Notes under the pieces: generated by a model | What the model was told of the DNA's origin: nothing | Databases searched by the model: none | Seen by the model: the letters and a program-made list of their open reading frames with translations, nothing else | Program-made: the position numbers and the translations under genes | Source of the DNA: Sphingomonas arvum | Lineage (GTDB): Bacteria; Pseudomonadota; Alphaproteobacteria; Sphingomonadales; Sphingomonadaceae | Length of the DNA stretch: 64,000 nt | Assembly: GCF_026013565.1 (NCBI RefSeq) | Contig: NZ_JAPDOB010000001.1 | Span: 248,001-312,000 of the forward strand | Reading direction: 5' to 3' | Part shown: positions 57,140-62,029 of the stretch, in pieces | Layout: every line of letters begins with the position of its first letter | How positions within the stretch are numbered: the first letter of the stretch is position 1

Positions 57140-57175
57140 CCGCAACTGATGCGCTCGTACCACCAAGAGGTTCTT

Positions 57176-58112
57176 ATGAATGGTCTAGGTAACATCGCTG
57201 GCACCAGCTTCCTGCAAAGGATGCTGCGGTTCAGCTCCTTCGCATTGGTGCTCGGCGGGCTTCTCGTCCCTCCTGCGGCGGCAGCCTCGAGAACCGACGT
57301 GAGGGGCGATATTCCGGTTAAACAGATCCCGGCTGTCATGGCGCAGGCGCTCGTGCCGGGCCTGCAAATGGCGGTGCTGCACGATGGAACGGTCGCACTT
57401 TACCACTTTGGTATCGCGGACGTGCAGTCCGGCCGAGCGGTGACAGACGACACCGTTTTCGAAGCAGCCTCGCTGAGTAAACCCGTGTTCGCTTACGGCG
57501 TCCTGCTGTTGGCGTCGCGCGGCAAGATTGATCTCGATGCGCCGGTCGGCCGCTATTTAGACGGCGTTTCCCCCGAAGTTGCGCGGCTGACTGCCCGAAG
57601 GCTGCTGAGCCACAGCGCGGGCATTGCACTGTCGCGCGATGGCAAACCAGCTGAACCTCGCAAGGGCTCCAGCCACCCCTGAGGATTATGCGATCCTGTC
57701 GGATGCACTACGCCGCTCAGGCCGGCCGATCGAAGCCACGGAAGCGGCGGCGAGGGGTCTCAAGCTTGATCCTGCCGATCCCAAGGCGAAGGAGGCGCTC
57801 GATAACGCCAAGAAGTCTTTGCTCAGCATACCGGCGCGCCGCCTCGCTTTGTTCGCCGGGACCTACTCCACTCCGTTCGGTGATCTCGAAGTGCGCAGCG
57901 ATGGCCGGAGACTAACGGCACAGCTCGTCGACCAGCCGGTCAGCCAGATGCTGCCGCTTGGCGACGACTCGTTTTTGATCGAAGCGATGGGAGTCCCGAT
58001 CCGCTTTGCTGAAGAACGAGGGCAGGTGACGCACGCAACTGTCACTGCCGGCGGTGAAGTCACGCTACCGAAAGTGGCACCGCCAAAGCCCCGCCGAAGT
58101 AACAAGAGCTGA
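57176..58112 (+). pseudogene. Serine beta-lactamase-family gene with internal deletion and frame change
   Basis: The 5' part (57176 to about 57640) encodes a signal peptide, 'GLQMAVLHDGTVALYHFGIAD', the nucleophile motif SLSK (EAASLSKPVFAYG) and 'LLSHSAGI', as in class C/LACT proteins. The frame then ends at 57682. In another frame from about 57650 to 58112 comes the tail of such a protein: a TPR-like helix pair and 'FAGTYSTPFGDLEVRSDG'. The YxN and HxG regions between are absent, implying deletion of some hundreds of nt. The product would be inactive. Confidence 0.7.
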
Positions 58113-58193
58113 TTGCGAAGGTACCGACGCACTGCTTCGGCTGCTCACGACAAGGTACGCTGAGGAGTTCGATGACCGAAACTTCGCAACGGA

Positions 58194-58256
58194 ATGTCCG
58201 GTTCGGGTCGGAAGCTGCCGTAAGCAGACCAGCCGCTATCGGCCACTTGCCGACAC
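58194..58256. repeat. Intergenic composite repeat, copy 2
   Basis: Partner of 56730-56790 (ATGTCCG, GGAAGCT, GACCAGCCGCTATCGGCC, CTTGCCG). Its first part also resembles the hairpin repeat at 5607-5630 read on the opposite strand. The 58113-58542 stretch holds this, another partial copy at 58281-58302, and no supported gene. Confidence 0.45.
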
Positions 58257-58506
58257 TCAGACTGACCCCACCTCAGCGTTGTTTGTGGTGGAAAGCAGAA
58301 CGGCAGCTTGCGAACTGACCATGACGGGTGGCAAACGGTCATTCATGTCACTGGAGACTGTGTCAGCCCCGCGGCCCTCCGGATCTTCAGAGCGGCTTCG
58401 TACATGGCCGCAAGCGCCCTCATGCCGCTATCGAGACCTCACCTCACCGGCATCGAAGGCTTAGGACTGGCGGATCGCAACAACAGCCATCATAACCGGC
58501 GATCAT

Positions 58507-58534
58507 CTGGCATTCAGATCTACATGACGATAAG
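58507..58534 (+). promoter_or_regulatory. Candidate promoter for the phhA leader
   Basis: CTGGCA (58507-58512), 16 nt, GATAAG (58529-58534). Each hexamer matches 4 of 6 consensus positions. The predicted start point is 58541-58543, on the leader ATG itself, so the leader ORF would be leaderless. Weak by itself; interesting because of the leader. Confidence 0.35.
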
Positions 58535-58542
58535 CCCATCCC

Positions 58543-58602
58543 ATGAGCCGTTCGATTGCAGCCGCGAGCTACTACTATCCCTACCAGGTGGGGATCGGCT
58601 GA
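58543..58602 (+). CDS. Tyrosine-rich leader peptide upstream of phhA
   Basis: A 19-codon ORF encoding MSRSIAAASYYYPYQVGIG then TGA. Codons 10-12 and 14 are Tyr (TAC TAC TAT, then TAC after a Pro codon). The next features are a strong terminator and the phhA ribosome site. No good Shine-Dalgarno precedes the ATG; a leaderless start is possible, as known for trpL of rhizobia. Such runs of the regulated amino acid are the hallmark of ribosome-mediated attenuation. Since PhhA makes tyrosine, the sensed amino acid would be its product. Role is inferred. Confidence 0.65.
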   Translation: MSRSIAAASYYYPYQVGIG

Positions 58603-58631
58603 CGCGCGTCTGACAGACAAGCAAACACCTG

Positions 58632-58662
58632 CCCCGCCCGACACCGTCAGGCGGGGTTTTTT
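58632..58662 (+). terminator. Attenuator terminator before phhA
   Basis: The perfect 7-bp stem CCCCGCC (58632-58638) / GGCGGGG (58650-58656), extended inside by GA/TC, is followed by six T. It ends 7 nt before the phhA GGAG. The 5' arm can instead pair with GGTGGGG (58587-58593, one G-U), located just after the Tyr codons of the leader; this would be the antiterminator. The segment 58546-58553 can pair with 58593-58600 (7 of 8), sequestering the right end of that region. Confidence 0.75.
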
Positions 58663-58676
58663 GTGCCTGGAGATCC

Positions 58677-59474
58677 ATGATGTTCGTTGAACCGGAGAGC
58701 ATGACCGCCTCGACCAGAGGAGGAAAGCCCTGGCAGGCTCACCTGATTGATCAAGGCTGGTGCAACTTCACGCCGGAGGATCATGCCGTCTGGGACATTC
58801 TGTTCAAGCGGCAGGTGCAGCTATTGAGGGGCCGGGTCGTCAGCAGTTTCCTGGATGGGCTCGACCTCTTAGAGCTAAATGCCCCCGGCGTGCCGGAGCT
58901 TACGCGTTTGAACCAGCGGTTGCTTGCACGCACCGGTTGGCGCTGCGTTTCGGTGGCCGGACTTGTGCCGGACGAGGCATTCTTTGCAATGCTTGCTGAC
59001 CGCCTCTTTCCGATCGGAAATTTTATCCGAACCCGTGTGCATTTGGACTATCTGGAAGAGCCTGACTGTTTCCACGACATTTTCGGCCACGTGCCCATGC
59101 TTGCGCACACCGGGATGGCGAACGCCATGCAATCGATTGGGGATCTCGGACTAAGGGCGATTGCGGCCGGCTTGGGACACCATGTAGCCCGGCTCTATTG
59201 GCACACCATCGAGTTTGGCTTGTGCAGGGAAGCGGATCATGTCCGCATCCTGGGCGCAGGGCTGGCGTCCAGCTTCGGTGAAGCTCGCGCTAGCCTTGAA
59301 GATGAGAGTATCGAGCGACGACGCTTCACCGTGGAAGAAGCGATTGCAGCATCTTACCGCCACGATGCTATGCAGCCGTTGTATTTCGTATCTGATAGCC
59401 TGGAGGCCGTGGTCAGTGCTCTTGAAGGCGCCACTCTGTCTCACCTGACCGTTCCTGAGCCGACGTCCGCTTGA
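58677..59474 (+). CDS. phhA: Phenylalanine-4-hydroxylase
   Basis: Non-haem iron, pterin-dependent conversion of phenylalanine to tyrosine. The 265-residue bacterial form has only the catalytic domain. Iron ligands His133 and His138 (CFHDIFGHVPML) and Glu179 (YWHTIEFGL) are all present, with 'FIRTRVHLDYLEEPD' before them. Two adjacent ATGs (58677, 58680); GGAG at 58669 favours the second slightly. No pterin dehydratase gene (phhB) is adjacent. Preceded by a Tyr-codon leader and terminator, suggesting tyrosine-controlled expression. Confidence 0.94.
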   Translation: MMFVEPESMTASTRGGKPWQAHLIDQGWCNFTPEDHAVWDILFKRQVQLLRGRVVSSFLDGLDLLELNAPGVPELTRLNQRLLARTGWRCVSVAGLVPDEAFFAMLADRLFPIGNFIRTRVHLDYLEEPDCFHDIFGHVPMLAHTGMANAMQSIGDLGLRAIAAGLGHHVARLYWHTIEFGLCREADHVRILGAGLASSFGEARASLEDESIERRRFTVEEAIAASYRHDAMQPLYFVSDSLEAVVSALEGATLSHLTVPEPTSA

Positions 59475-59594
59475 GTGCCAGTGGATCCGACAAGCGGCAT
59501 TTCTGATGGAGGCCATAAGGTGTCGTAAGGGACACCTGCTGGTGTCTGGAAAACAGCCATGGCCGATATCCGTGGGGCCAGATAAGCTTCTGCC

Positions 59595-60197
59595 ATGTGC
59601 AATCTTTACACCATGAACGCGTCCGTCGATGAACTGCGGCGTGCCTTCGGGCCATTCCGTGGTGACACTGCCAATCTGCCGAGCTTCGGTGACATCTACC
59701 CGAACCGCGCAGCGCCGGTACTCCGCGCGGAGGACGACGAGCTGGTGCTTGACGTCATGCAGTGGGGCTTTCCTGGGCCAACAGCTGCCGGCAGGCGGCC
59801 GGTGACTAATGTTCGCAACCTGGCAAGCCCATTCTGGCGATCGGCCCTAAAAAGCCCAGAGCGGCGGTGCATTGTCCCGGTGACCAGATTCTGTGAGTGG
59901 ACGGCTGAGCCGGATCCGGAGACCAAGCGTAAGCGCAAGGTGTGGTTCGGCCTGCACGAGGCCGAGCACCCGGTGTTCGCATTCGCGGGGATCTGGCGGC
60001 GGGTAGAGGAGGGTCGAGCCATGGCGTTCCTGACCTGCGAACCCAACGAGCTGGTTGGTGCGATCCACCCCAAAGCTATGCCGGTGATCCTAAACCCTGC
60101 CGACGTGCGCCGCTGGCTGTCAGACGAAATGGCGAGCGCTTGTGCCTTGGCAGTGCCGTTTGCAACTGAGCGTATGCGGCAATTCGCTAATCCTTGA
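59595..60197 (+). CDS. SOS-response-associated (YedK/HMCES) abasic-site protein
   Basis: A 200-residue SRAP-domain protein that crosslinks to abasic sites in single-stranded DNA. The essential Cys2 directly after Met (MCNLY) fixes the start. 'WGFPGPTA' with 'NVRNLASPFW', 'RCIVPVTRFCEW' and 'HPKAMPVIL' supply the other active-site residues (Asn, Glu, His). It lies directly upstream of a recombinase gene. Confidence 0.92.
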   Translation: MCNLYTMNASVDELRRAFGPFRGDTANLPSFGDIYPNRAAPVLRAEDDELVLDVMQWGFPGPTAAGRRPVTNVRNLASPFWRSALKSPERRCIVPVTRFCEWTAEPDPETKRKRKVWFGLHEAEHPVFAFAGIWRRVEEGRAMAFLTCEPNELVGAIHPKAMPVILNPADVRRWLSDEMASACALAVPFATERMRQFANP

Positions 60198-60265: not shown

Positions 60266-62029
60266 GTGGCCGAATCCATTCGATGCGCCATCTACACCCG
60301 CAAGAGCGCCGACATCGTTGCTGAGCAGGAGGTCAACTCTTTGCACGCGCAACGAGAAGTCTGCTCAGCATATATCAAGTGCAATGCCCATCTCGGATGG
60401 GAGGAAATCGACAAGGGCTATGACGACGGCGGACGCTCGGGGGCTAATCTTGACCGGCCCGCTCTGCACGAGCTGATTTTAGACGTCGAGCGCGGCCTGG
60501 TAGACGTCATTGTCTTCTACAAGATCGACCGCCTCACCAGATCGCTGTCTGATTTCGTTCGACTTATGGACAGCCTAGCCCGCCATAATGTCGCGTTCGT
60601 CAGCGTGACACAATCGTTCGATACGTCGACCAGCATGGGTCGCATGATACTGAACGTATTGCTGACCTTCGCACAATTCGAGCGGGAGATGTTAGCGGAC
60701 CGCATTCGTGACAAACTTACTTCATTGCGCCAGCGCGGTCTTCACGTTCAAGGCAGGGTTCCACTCGGCTACGATAAAGTCGCTGGTAGACTTATAGTTA
60801 ACAGTGAGGAAGCTGCAATAGTTCGAAGCATATTCGAGCGTTTTGAGCGATTTCCAACTATCTTCGCCCTTATGCGACAGTTGCAAGGCGAAGGCGTTAC
60901 AATCAAGAAGGTGGTGACAAGGGCAGGTCGCATAACTGGCGGCGTTCCTATGCACCGTGGGGCACTATACGCGCTCATAAAAAACCCGATCTACATCGGG
61001 TACATCAGTTGCAAAGGAACTTGGTACGAAGGCGTGCACGAGCCAATCATCGACCGTTCATTGTGGGATCGTGTCCAAGAGGTTCAGCTTGCGCGTAGCC
61101 GGCCGAAGCCGCCTCGCGACCCAGGAAGGAACCTTCTCAGCGGCCTGATATACGATGGCTACGATCGAAAGCTCTTCGTGCAGGATGGCGGGAGTTTGAA
61201 GGACCGCTACCGCTTCTATCAAACGGCACCCAAATGCCGTGTTCGGAAGCACTACCTCGACCTAATCCGTGTCCGGGCAGACCATGTTGAGGATCTGACT
61301 TACCAGGCCATCGCGACTTTGCTTGCCGACCCTGATCGCGTGCGACGCATGCTACTCAGCACCGGCACAATCGACATAGACATGAACCAGCTCGGCCAGC
61401 GGTGCAGCGCAGCCGCTGCAGCTTTCATGCACATGGATCGCCTCGAGTTGCGCGAGTTCTATCAAGCATGTCTAATACGGATTGAAGTGGCGAAATCTGA
61501 GCTTCGGTTGCTACTGTCGATACGCAATTTGATCCGGTTTGCGAGTGGTGAGCCGGTCCCTGCTTTAGAGCCGATAGCTGGCAACTCACACACGGGCAGG
61601 GCGTACCTGCTAACCATCAATGCGCATGTAGTCTCGGCACATCGCGATTTTTGCCTGCCCATTCAGACAGCGGACCCGAGCCGGGAGCACCGGATCAACC
61701 GCAAGCTCGTGAACCTATTGCGCCGAGCGTCAGAGGCTCAGGAGGCAGTTCTTAGTCGCCGCGGCGAAACCATCCGAGACATCAGTGCAGACTTCAAACT
61801 CGGACCCAGCAAGTTCTCCCGGCTGCTCCGCCTGAACTATCTCGCGCCAGATATAAAAACTGCGATCTGCGACGGAGCTCAGCCGCAAAGCCTCAGCCCT
61901 CACGATCTGATCTATAGCGCCCTGCCACTTGATTGGGATCAGCAGCGCCGTTTGCTGGGCTTTATTGAACCCAGTTCACATACGGGCGAACACGACATTG
62001 TCGCGGACCTTTCTACCACCCTCGGCTGA
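60266..62029 (+). CDS. Large serine recombinase
   Basis: A 587-residue recombinase. The resolvase domain (about 1-150) has the nucleophile Ser14 in IYTRKSAD and 'IDRLTRSLSDFVRLMD'. The recombinase domain (about 160-275: VPLGYDKVAGRLIVN; GALYALIKNPIYIGY) and a ribbon-like region without the usual zinc cysteines (NLLSGLIYDGYDRKLF) follow. The C-terminal helix-turn-helix (GETIRDISADFKL; LRLNYLAPDIKTAI) is typical of rhizobial relatives. GTG start with AGGAG. It is AT-richer than core genes, a sign of transfer. Confidence 0.92.
   Translation: MAESIRCAIYTRKSADIVAEQEVNSLHAQREVCSAYIKCNAHLGWEEIDKGYDDGGRSGANLDRPALHELILDVERGLVDVIVFYKIDRLTRSLSDFVRLMDSLARHNVAFVSVTQSFDTSTSMGRMILNVLLTFAQFEREMLADRIRDKLTSLRQRGLHVQGRVPLGYDKVAGRLIVNSEEAAIVRSIFERFERFPTIFALMRQLQGEGVTIKKVVTRAGRITGGVPMHRGALYALIKNPIYIGYISCKGTWYEGVHEPIIDRSLWDRVQEVQLARSRPKPPRDPGRNLLSGLIYDGYDRKLFVQDGGSLKDRYRFYQTAPKCRVRKHYLDLIRVRADHVEDLTYQAIATLLADPDRVRRMLLSTGTIDIDMNQLGQRCSAAAAAFMHMDRLELREFYQACLIRIEVAKSELRLLLSIRNLIRFASGEPVPALEPIAGNSHTGRAYLLTINAHVVSAHRDFCLPIQTADPSREHRINRKLVNLLRRASEAQEAVLSRRGETIRDISADFKLGPSKFSRLLRLNYLAPDIKTAICDGAQPQSLSPHDLIYSALPLDWDQQRRLLGFIEPSSHTGEHDIVADLSTTLG

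Follow-up and report, generated by a model that had tools for sequence, protein, structure and literature searches.

The phhA leader region of the window

The window, as the whole 64,000-nt stretch of DNA analysed here is termed (G000:C1:248001-312000 of a 2.75 Mb genome), carries on its plus strand a phenylalanine 4-hydroxylase gene, phhA (58677..59474), recognised in the list of open reading frames and by its Pfam Biopterin_H match (4.6e-43). Ahead of it, on the same strand, lies a short open reading frame (ORF), MSRSIAAASYYYPYQVGIG, translated from ATG to TGA (58543..58602) and kept in register across leaders, in which Tyr occupies codons 10, 11 and 12 (TAC TAC TAT, 58570-58578) and codon 14 (TAC, 58582-58584); by inspection, the stretch TAC TAC TAT CCC TAC (58570..58584, plus strand) provides the putative control codons. 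An intrinsic terminator (58632..58662, plus strand), recognised from sequence, folding and alignment, begins 29 nt after the stop codon and combines a 7-bp GC stem with an inner 3-bp stem, laid out as CCCCGCC (58632-58638), the loop CGACACCGTCA, GGCGGGG (58650-58656) and TTTTTT (58657-58662). It is followed by GGAG, just upstream of the phhA start codon, which is the ATG at 58677 or, alternatively, the one at 58680. These coordinates agree with the original prediction of an ORF with Tyr codons at 10, 11, 12 and 14 ending 29 nt before a perfect GC-rich terminator with six T, and the arrangement is that of an attenuator, with tandem codons for the product amino acid in a short ORF and a terminator between this ORF and the structural gene. 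A simple terminator scan of 57500-60000 reported none, its loop limit being 8 against an actual loop of 11 nt with 3 inner pairs, and the fold of 58530-58680 taken alone is not unusually stable (z -0.97).

Three further elements complete the putative switch, all on the plus strand. Region 2, GGTGGGG (58587..58593), is the proposed 5' strand of an antiterminator, as indicated by its register and by the comparison of cognate and swapped partners given below, and pairs with region 3, CCCCGCC (58632..58638), which is the 5' arm of the terminator and hence common to both structures on sequence and pairing. A 1:2 protector hairpin, AUCCCUAC-CAG-GUGGGGAU (58577..58595), is predicted by folding and alignment. 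Upstream of the ORF, inspection of the sequence points to a promoter-like region (CTGGCA, 16 nt, GATAAG; 58507..58534, plus strand) whose GATAAG is separated by 8 nt from the start codon of the leader, a spacing at which the transcript may be nearly leaderless. A sigma-70 promoter scan of 57500-60000 found none; with a simple pattern, 36 of the 67 leaders described below have a -10-like hexamer at a distance of 7-10 nt from the chosen ATG and two have it at 6 nt, and 29 give no match.

Searches against Rfam did not assign the region to a described family. Over 58000-59800, nothing was found at E <= 1 besides a match to the RcsR1 sRNA (RF02552), an identity that was rejected at 18.8 bits and E 0.76 against a gathering score of 60. 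For the other families of Rfam 15, including T-box, riboswitch and known amino acid leaders, no leader reached the gathering score in the 20 leader loci scanned, where the sole match was a tRNA upstream of the leader in one locus (L068). The same chromosome holds a second copy of the leader, phhA and the next, SRAP-domain gene, with 96% identity between window positions 58352-60187 and G000:C1 ~754130-755970; its PhhA is 99% identical to that of the window and its leader peptide identical, with a one-base change at the loop end of the terminator 5' arm. A 587-aa serine recombinase (60266-62029) adjoins the window copy and, on its other side, a PF00144 beta-lactamase-family gene (57149-58112) is apparently split across two frames, with a DUF3471-like part in the second.

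Distribution of the leader and its Tyr register

A search with the window's PhhA of 61 genomes (that of the window, 36 other members of its genus and 24 genomes of other families) found phhA in 45; the genus is a group of Sphingomonas-like bacteria with small genomes. Among the first 47 phhA loci, 33 displayed the pattern of a terminator with a Tyr-bearing ORF; the remaining 14 comprise one whose leader was later found by covariance model (L022), three leaderless copies from genus members G007 and G010 (L035-L037) and the loci of other families (L038-L047). A covariance model (R1), run with filters that lose some weak matches on 71 genus genomes and 296 genomes of the order, yielded, together with the first set, 67 phhA-linked leaders: 66 in 64 genus genomes, with two each in G000 and G024, and one in another genus of the family (G206), whose peptide, SYYYYYRRRAVFD, includes YYYYY. 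The original prediction had looked to the regions upstream of phhA in other sphingomonads for conserved Tyr codons, and this expectation is borne out, since Tyr codons, ORF, terminator and phhA occur together in 64 of the 65 phhA-bearing genus genomes. The exception, G007, has two phhA copies, both leaderless, while G010 has one copy with and one without. Among five relatives named through their PhhA, which include Sphingomonas arenae SYSU D00720, Sphingomonas alba SE158 and three uncultured Sphingomonas assemblies, the leader could be read in four, the fifth (L179) giving no match to the terminator pattern; such species are, we assume, placed in Sphingomicrobium by GTDB.

Outside these genomes the leader fades rapidly. 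In the order sample R1 gave nothing further below E 1e-6, and in a class sample of 385 genomes only the window's genome scored below that value, all others lying at E 2e-5 or worse; nine of the class-wide loci (L181-L189) have no PhhA in the adjoining stretch examined. Six genus genomes (G016, G023, G033, G064, G089 and G090) show no phhA by family or protein search, and three of them are less than 90% complete. The near-complete ones (G023, G089 and G090) are candidate tyrosine auxotrophs; for tyrA, G023 gave no match and G089 a weak one only (3.2e-5).

The Tyr codons hold a fixed register before the stop codon, with Tyr at codon -8 in 56, at -9 in 54 and at -10 in 44 of the 67 leaders, and at least two Tyr fall within three consecutive codons in 63. 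The leader frame was chosen as the one richest in Tyr codons, and the same best-frame choice was therefore repeated as a control with Phe, His, Trp, Asn and Asp, two-in-three runs then appearing for Asp in three of the 67 leaders and for none of the other four. Of the 335 residues at codons -7 to -11, 162 are Tyr and 39, the next highest count, are Pro; none is Phe. The remainder of the peptide is highly variable outside the Tyr codons (VGIG, EAGTS, RAVETS, ARAETD), and the stop codon lies 26-37 nt from the terminator arm in 66 leaders and 16 nt from it in one. Codon usage at -6 to -12 across leaders runs to 147 TAT against 20 TAC; the window's own leader has three TAC and one TAT, and the window's open frames of more than 300 codons contain 225 TAC and 105 TAT.

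The original prediction had named the loss of Tyr codons from leaders that keep the terminator as evidence against it, and this combination does occur, with zero or one Tyr at -6 to -12, in five of the 67 leaders (L090, L095, L097, L098 and L099), the Tyr codons being kept in the others. Four of the five (L095, L097, L098 and L099) form a sub-clade in which the tandem Tyr are largely lost (YRxxWK or YRxxCK-like) but the terminator persists, as does a helix of 6 to 12 pairs between regions 2 and 3.

Two of the weaker R1 matches within the genus (L108, L110) are leaders with Thr/Ile codons. Leader-like regions at these and four other loci (L112, L114, L119 and L124) precede aspartokinase-type genes, those downstream of L110, L112 and L114 being aspartokinase-homoserine dehydrogenases by Pfam. 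Furthermore, seven genomes in which chorismate synthase was not detected carry tandem-Trp (WW) leaders (L113, L116, L118, L122, L123, L126 and L127), which look like attenuators retained on the stump of a pathway; the two checked (L116, L123) stand before a Glycos_transf_3 gene (Pfam), taken to be trpD. The presence of Thr/Ile and Trp leaders suggests that the genus applies this kind of regulation to other genes as well. No claim is made for a leucine leader (L115, L120, with LLLL), since the gene after L120 is a zinc-type dehydrogenase.

Pairing between region 2 and the terminator arm

Region 2 sits at a near fixed distance from the leader stop codon, and in 66 of the 67 leaders five or more uninterrupted pairs join it to a partner at or before the terminator 5' arm; L034 has no helix of 5 pairs. 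The pairing takes different forms in different clades. The full overlap of GGTGGGG with the arm itself, as put forward in the original prediction, characterises the clade to which the window's leader belongs (14 leaders), while in 18 leaders a GCGGTGG or GCGATGG form has a partner that mostly ends on or near the first base of the arm. A third form, GAGGTTGG or GAGGCTGG with CCAACCTC- or CCAGCCTC-like partners, defines a GAGG.. clade of 23 leaders in which the best helix falls 2-4 positions short of where the arm begins; because the helix stops before the arm, base overlap lends no support to mutual exclusion in that clade. Other forms account for 11 leaders.

Consensus folding of a 33-row alignment recovered the terminator only. 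Since the antiterminator is out of register in that alignment, the pairing was assessed through duplexes of region 2 with its cognate region 3 and with region 3 sequences swapped among leaders. Cognate duplexes average -19.4 kcal/mol against -16.7 kcal/mol for swapped ones (67 leaders; z -8.8), and 0 of 5000 shuffles are as low, a count that is not a probability, the swapped sequences being those of relatives. Three control pairings gave z values of -0.7 (1319 of 5000 as low), +3.4 (4999 of 5000) and -1.7 (220 of 5000), and a smaller cognate-versus-swapped test on 30 loci pointed in the same direction as the full one. In the best helices, which were chosen for pairing, region-2 position -14 forms C-G in 21 and A-U in 23 cases, and position -11 forms U-A in 32, C-G in 13 and U-G in 20, so that the two sides of the proposed antiterminator change in step, in line with the covarying stems that the original prediction had sought upstream of phhA. 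The PhhA tree requires at least 17 changes at three region-2 positions. Moreover, the helix is kept under differing encoded residues (EVG, EAG, AVE, AME), and its retention despite these amino acid changes argues for selection on the RNA. One covarying pair, read in 21 of 23 clade rows, is U-A in 12, C-G in seven and U-G in two, with no C-A, under a motif that admitted only A or G at the partner base, left C-A as the only detectable mismatch and dropped L081 and L128. A strict independent-pairs test of this pair had only 2 usable pairs on supported branches, a number at which significance is out of reach.

The other two helices are conserved to different extents. In 32 distinct rows, 97% of the cells of the terminator helix are paired, as are 65% of those of the 1:2 hairpin, with two-sided changes at 6 of its 8 pairs. 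When the two helices are taken together, none of 500 shuffles attains the paired-cell share or the covariation score; for the two measures counting pairs and pair types, 30 and 54 of 500 do so. Cognate 1:2 hairpins lie below all 5000 swaps in the 67 leaders, and folding predicts the hairpin in some, not all, of five leaders.

In folding models of the window before the 3' arm exists, the terminator arm pairs with region 2 with a probability of 0.997 under a stalled ribosome and of 0.26 in free RNA, the latter because the 1:2 hairpin sequesters region 2. Once the 3' arm is present, the terminator wins at equilibrium in every modelled state (0.998 even with the ribosome stalled); equilibrium folding was hence rejected as proof of a switch, none being seen for the window, and any switch must be kinetic and co-transcriptional, with the antiterminator forming first. 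Across the 67 leaders, a stalled ribosome reduces the probability of the terminator at equilibrium by more than 0.05 in 26 cases and increases it by as much in none, and the fraction of the arm bound to region 2 under stalling has a median of only 0.17. Ribosome-free RNA also forms the region 2/region 3 contact (median 1.00, quartiles 0.50-1.00), and protection by the 1:2 hairpin is therefore not general: the folding has it blocking region 2 in the window, and not in the typical leader.

These features are best accommodated by ribosome-mediated transcription attenuation, with charged tRNA-Tyr as the signal sensed and phhA, for the tyrosine-supply enzyme of the cell, as the target; on the basis of comparative sequence analysis, we assign this reading a probability of roughly 0.9. 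In this model, a ribosome translating the leader would stall at the tandem Tyr codons when Tyr-tRNA is scarce, leaving region 2 (GGTGGGG) free to capture CCCCGCC ahead of the synthesis of the 3' arm, and transcription would then continue into phhA. With plentiful Tyr-tRNA, the ribosome would reach the stop codon and cover region 2, allowing the terminator to form and turning phhA off. Failing translation, the 1:2 hairpin of the window would hide region 2 and termination would again prevail. The response of the leader to tyrosine would hence depend on a kinetic choice between the two structures.

Three other explanations have to be weighed against the attenuator. The leader ORF could encode a functional small peptide, or the terminated RNA could act in trans as an sRNA, with constitutive read-through into phhA. 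There is a precedent for trans action in the accessible description of peTrpL and rnTrpL of Sinorhizobium meliloti (PMC7298713), and the faint RcsR1 match falls over this region; that match is far below its gathering score, none of the 20 leader loci reaches any Rfam family, and the peptide varies beyond its Tyr codons, whereas region 2 keeps its RNA partner, making such a role very improbable. An attenuator responding to a general slow-down of translation, or to an amino acid other than tyrosine, would fit the five leaders with at most one Tyr codon in the control stretch, where Pro, Ala, Ser and Arg also occur. Tyr is nevertheless by far the commonest residue there, and the enzyme's own substrate, Phe, is missing, so that we see little prospect for this variant.

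The possibility that the ORF is fortuitous and the terminator simply ends some upstream transcript, with no regulation involved, would account for the unremarkable stability of the region's fold and for the failure of the sigma-70 scan to return a consensus promoter. It is nonetheless extremely unlikely, given that Tyr register, spacing and pairing are conserved in 67 leaders, that a promoter-like element lies directly upstream of the ORF and that YYY occurs in only one of the 473 ATG-started ORFs of 10-60 codons in the window, the leader ORF itself. Conservation is a stronger argument against chance than the rarity of YYY ORFs. A conserved, tyrosine-specific attenuator of phhA is, on this comparative evidence, very probably real and functional.

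Tyrosine supply and relation to known attenuators

The gene content of the genus offers a context for tyrosine-sensing control of phhA. In the genus, only three of 61 genomes (G004, G007 and G010) have an above-cut-off match to prephenate dehydrogenase (tyrA, PF02153), with weak matches below the cut-off in 7 more; in the order, 246 of the 296 genomes sampled have one above it. Searches of the 61 detected prephenate dehydratase in 14 and chorismate synthase in 42; the window's genome has chorismate synthase, and neither tyrA nor prephenate dehydratase was found in it. Chorismate synthase was not found in 19 of the 61 genomes: phhA with its leader is retained in 16 of these, including nine with completeness of 90% or more and contamination of 5% or less, and no phhA is present in the other three; unrecognised alternative enzymes for Phe or Tyr synthesis are possible behind all of these missing Pfam matches. 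The chorismate synthase of the window's genome (G000:C1:41629-42489) and of several relatives is shorter over the profile, at ~330 bits and roughly 860 nt, than that of other members of the genus, which reaches as much as 458 bits over about 1005 nt. The regulated gene is thus predicted to make the amino acid that its leader would sense, phhA being assigned by Pfam in a genus with so few tyrA genes.

Gene order in some relatives places phhA among shikimate genes. In G004 the order is aroC-aroB-aroE-leader-phhA, and in G003 the leader and phhA follow genes for chorismate mutase, EPSP synthase and prephenate dehydratase, aroC and aroB; in a midpoint-rooted PhhA tree, the PhhA of both genomes groups on the side of other genera. 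Together with the missing tyrA, these shikimate neighbours lend support to the role of tyrosine-supply enzyme that the original prediction had ascribed to PhhA. Two leaderless copies have related surroundings, with aroE named in both from sequence and not by Pfam: in G007 phhA follows an aroE-like frame, and in G010 an aroE-like sequence and phhA share one open frame adjacent to tyrA. 4-Hydroxyphenylpyruvate dioxygenase is above cut-off in 56 of the 61 genomes and, given this enzyme, tyrosine breakdown is possible in the genus; phhA would not be run for that purpose, because under the proposed control the gene would shut off when tyrosine is plentiful.

Loss of tyrA as the sole cause of the leader was considered and rejected. 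In other genera of the family, 12 genomes have phhA and lack a tyrA match; just one of them (G206) carries the leader, the other 11 being leaderless. No leader was found in five tyrA-less, phhA-bearing genomes of other families (L039-L042, L046) or in six tyrA-bearing genomes of another genus (g28). Conversely, leader and tyrA are both present in G004 and in G010, where tyrA is in two overlapping pieces.

Taken together, it is reasonably likely that nearly the whole genus has dropped the prephenate-dehydrogenase route, makes its tyrosine in animal fashion from phenylalanine and governs this step by what is apparently the first tyrosine-specific attenuator to be described, and the first for PhhA. 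Many members would import the phenylalanine, since searches detected no prephenate dehydratase in them and, in some, not even a chorismate synthase. If this scheme is correct, tyrosine joins the amino acids sensed through ribosome-mediated attenuation, and phenylalanine hydroxylase, usually called catabolic, falls under biosynthetic logic. A product-sensing leader could then serve as a sequence mark separating biosynthetic from catabolic hydroxylases, and the model predicts specific auxotrophies in sphingomonads that can be checked on plates. Furthermore, the pairing forms of the different clades, one of which stops short of the arm, would constitute a natural series for studying how much overlap an antiterminator requires.

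Ribosome-mediated transcription attenuators govern the trp, his, leu, thr and phe operons, and we know of no Tyr-specific one. Our partial search of the open-access literature found no description of such an attenuator or of a phhA leader with Tyr codons, and the main text of PMC2965389 mentions neither tyrosine nor phhA. The biosynthetic use of the enzyme has parallels: according to the available part of one report, the hydroxylase has been proposed as the tyrosine source in Dyella, Legionella and Echinicola, and prephenate or arogenate dehydrogenase was not identified in Dyella and Legionella, with no leader or attenuator described there for these hydroxylases (PMC7311316). In Pseudomonas, phhA is described in the text available as activated by PhhR with sigma-54 in a catabolic induction (PMC1173090); the enzyme is the same here, but the control proposed is a product-sensing attenuator. 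The trpL transcript of Sinorhizobium meliloti starts at the leader ATG and is leaderless in the account available (PMC7298713); in the window the -10-like element ends 8 nt before the ATG, a spacing within the 7-10 nt pattern of 36 of the 67 leaders that suggests a putative start site close to the ATG. In its architecture the phhA leader resembles the attenuators of amino acid operons, as far as the accessible parts of their descriptions go, with a short ORF bearing tandem product codons, alternative antiterminator and terminator structures and the structural gene immediately downstream (PMC7298713; PMC1183508). It differs from them in its Tyr sensor codons and in its target, a hydroxylase that works with Phe, O2 and a pterin. 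The mechanism is hence a classical one, and it is the amino acid sensed and the gene controlled that appear to be new.
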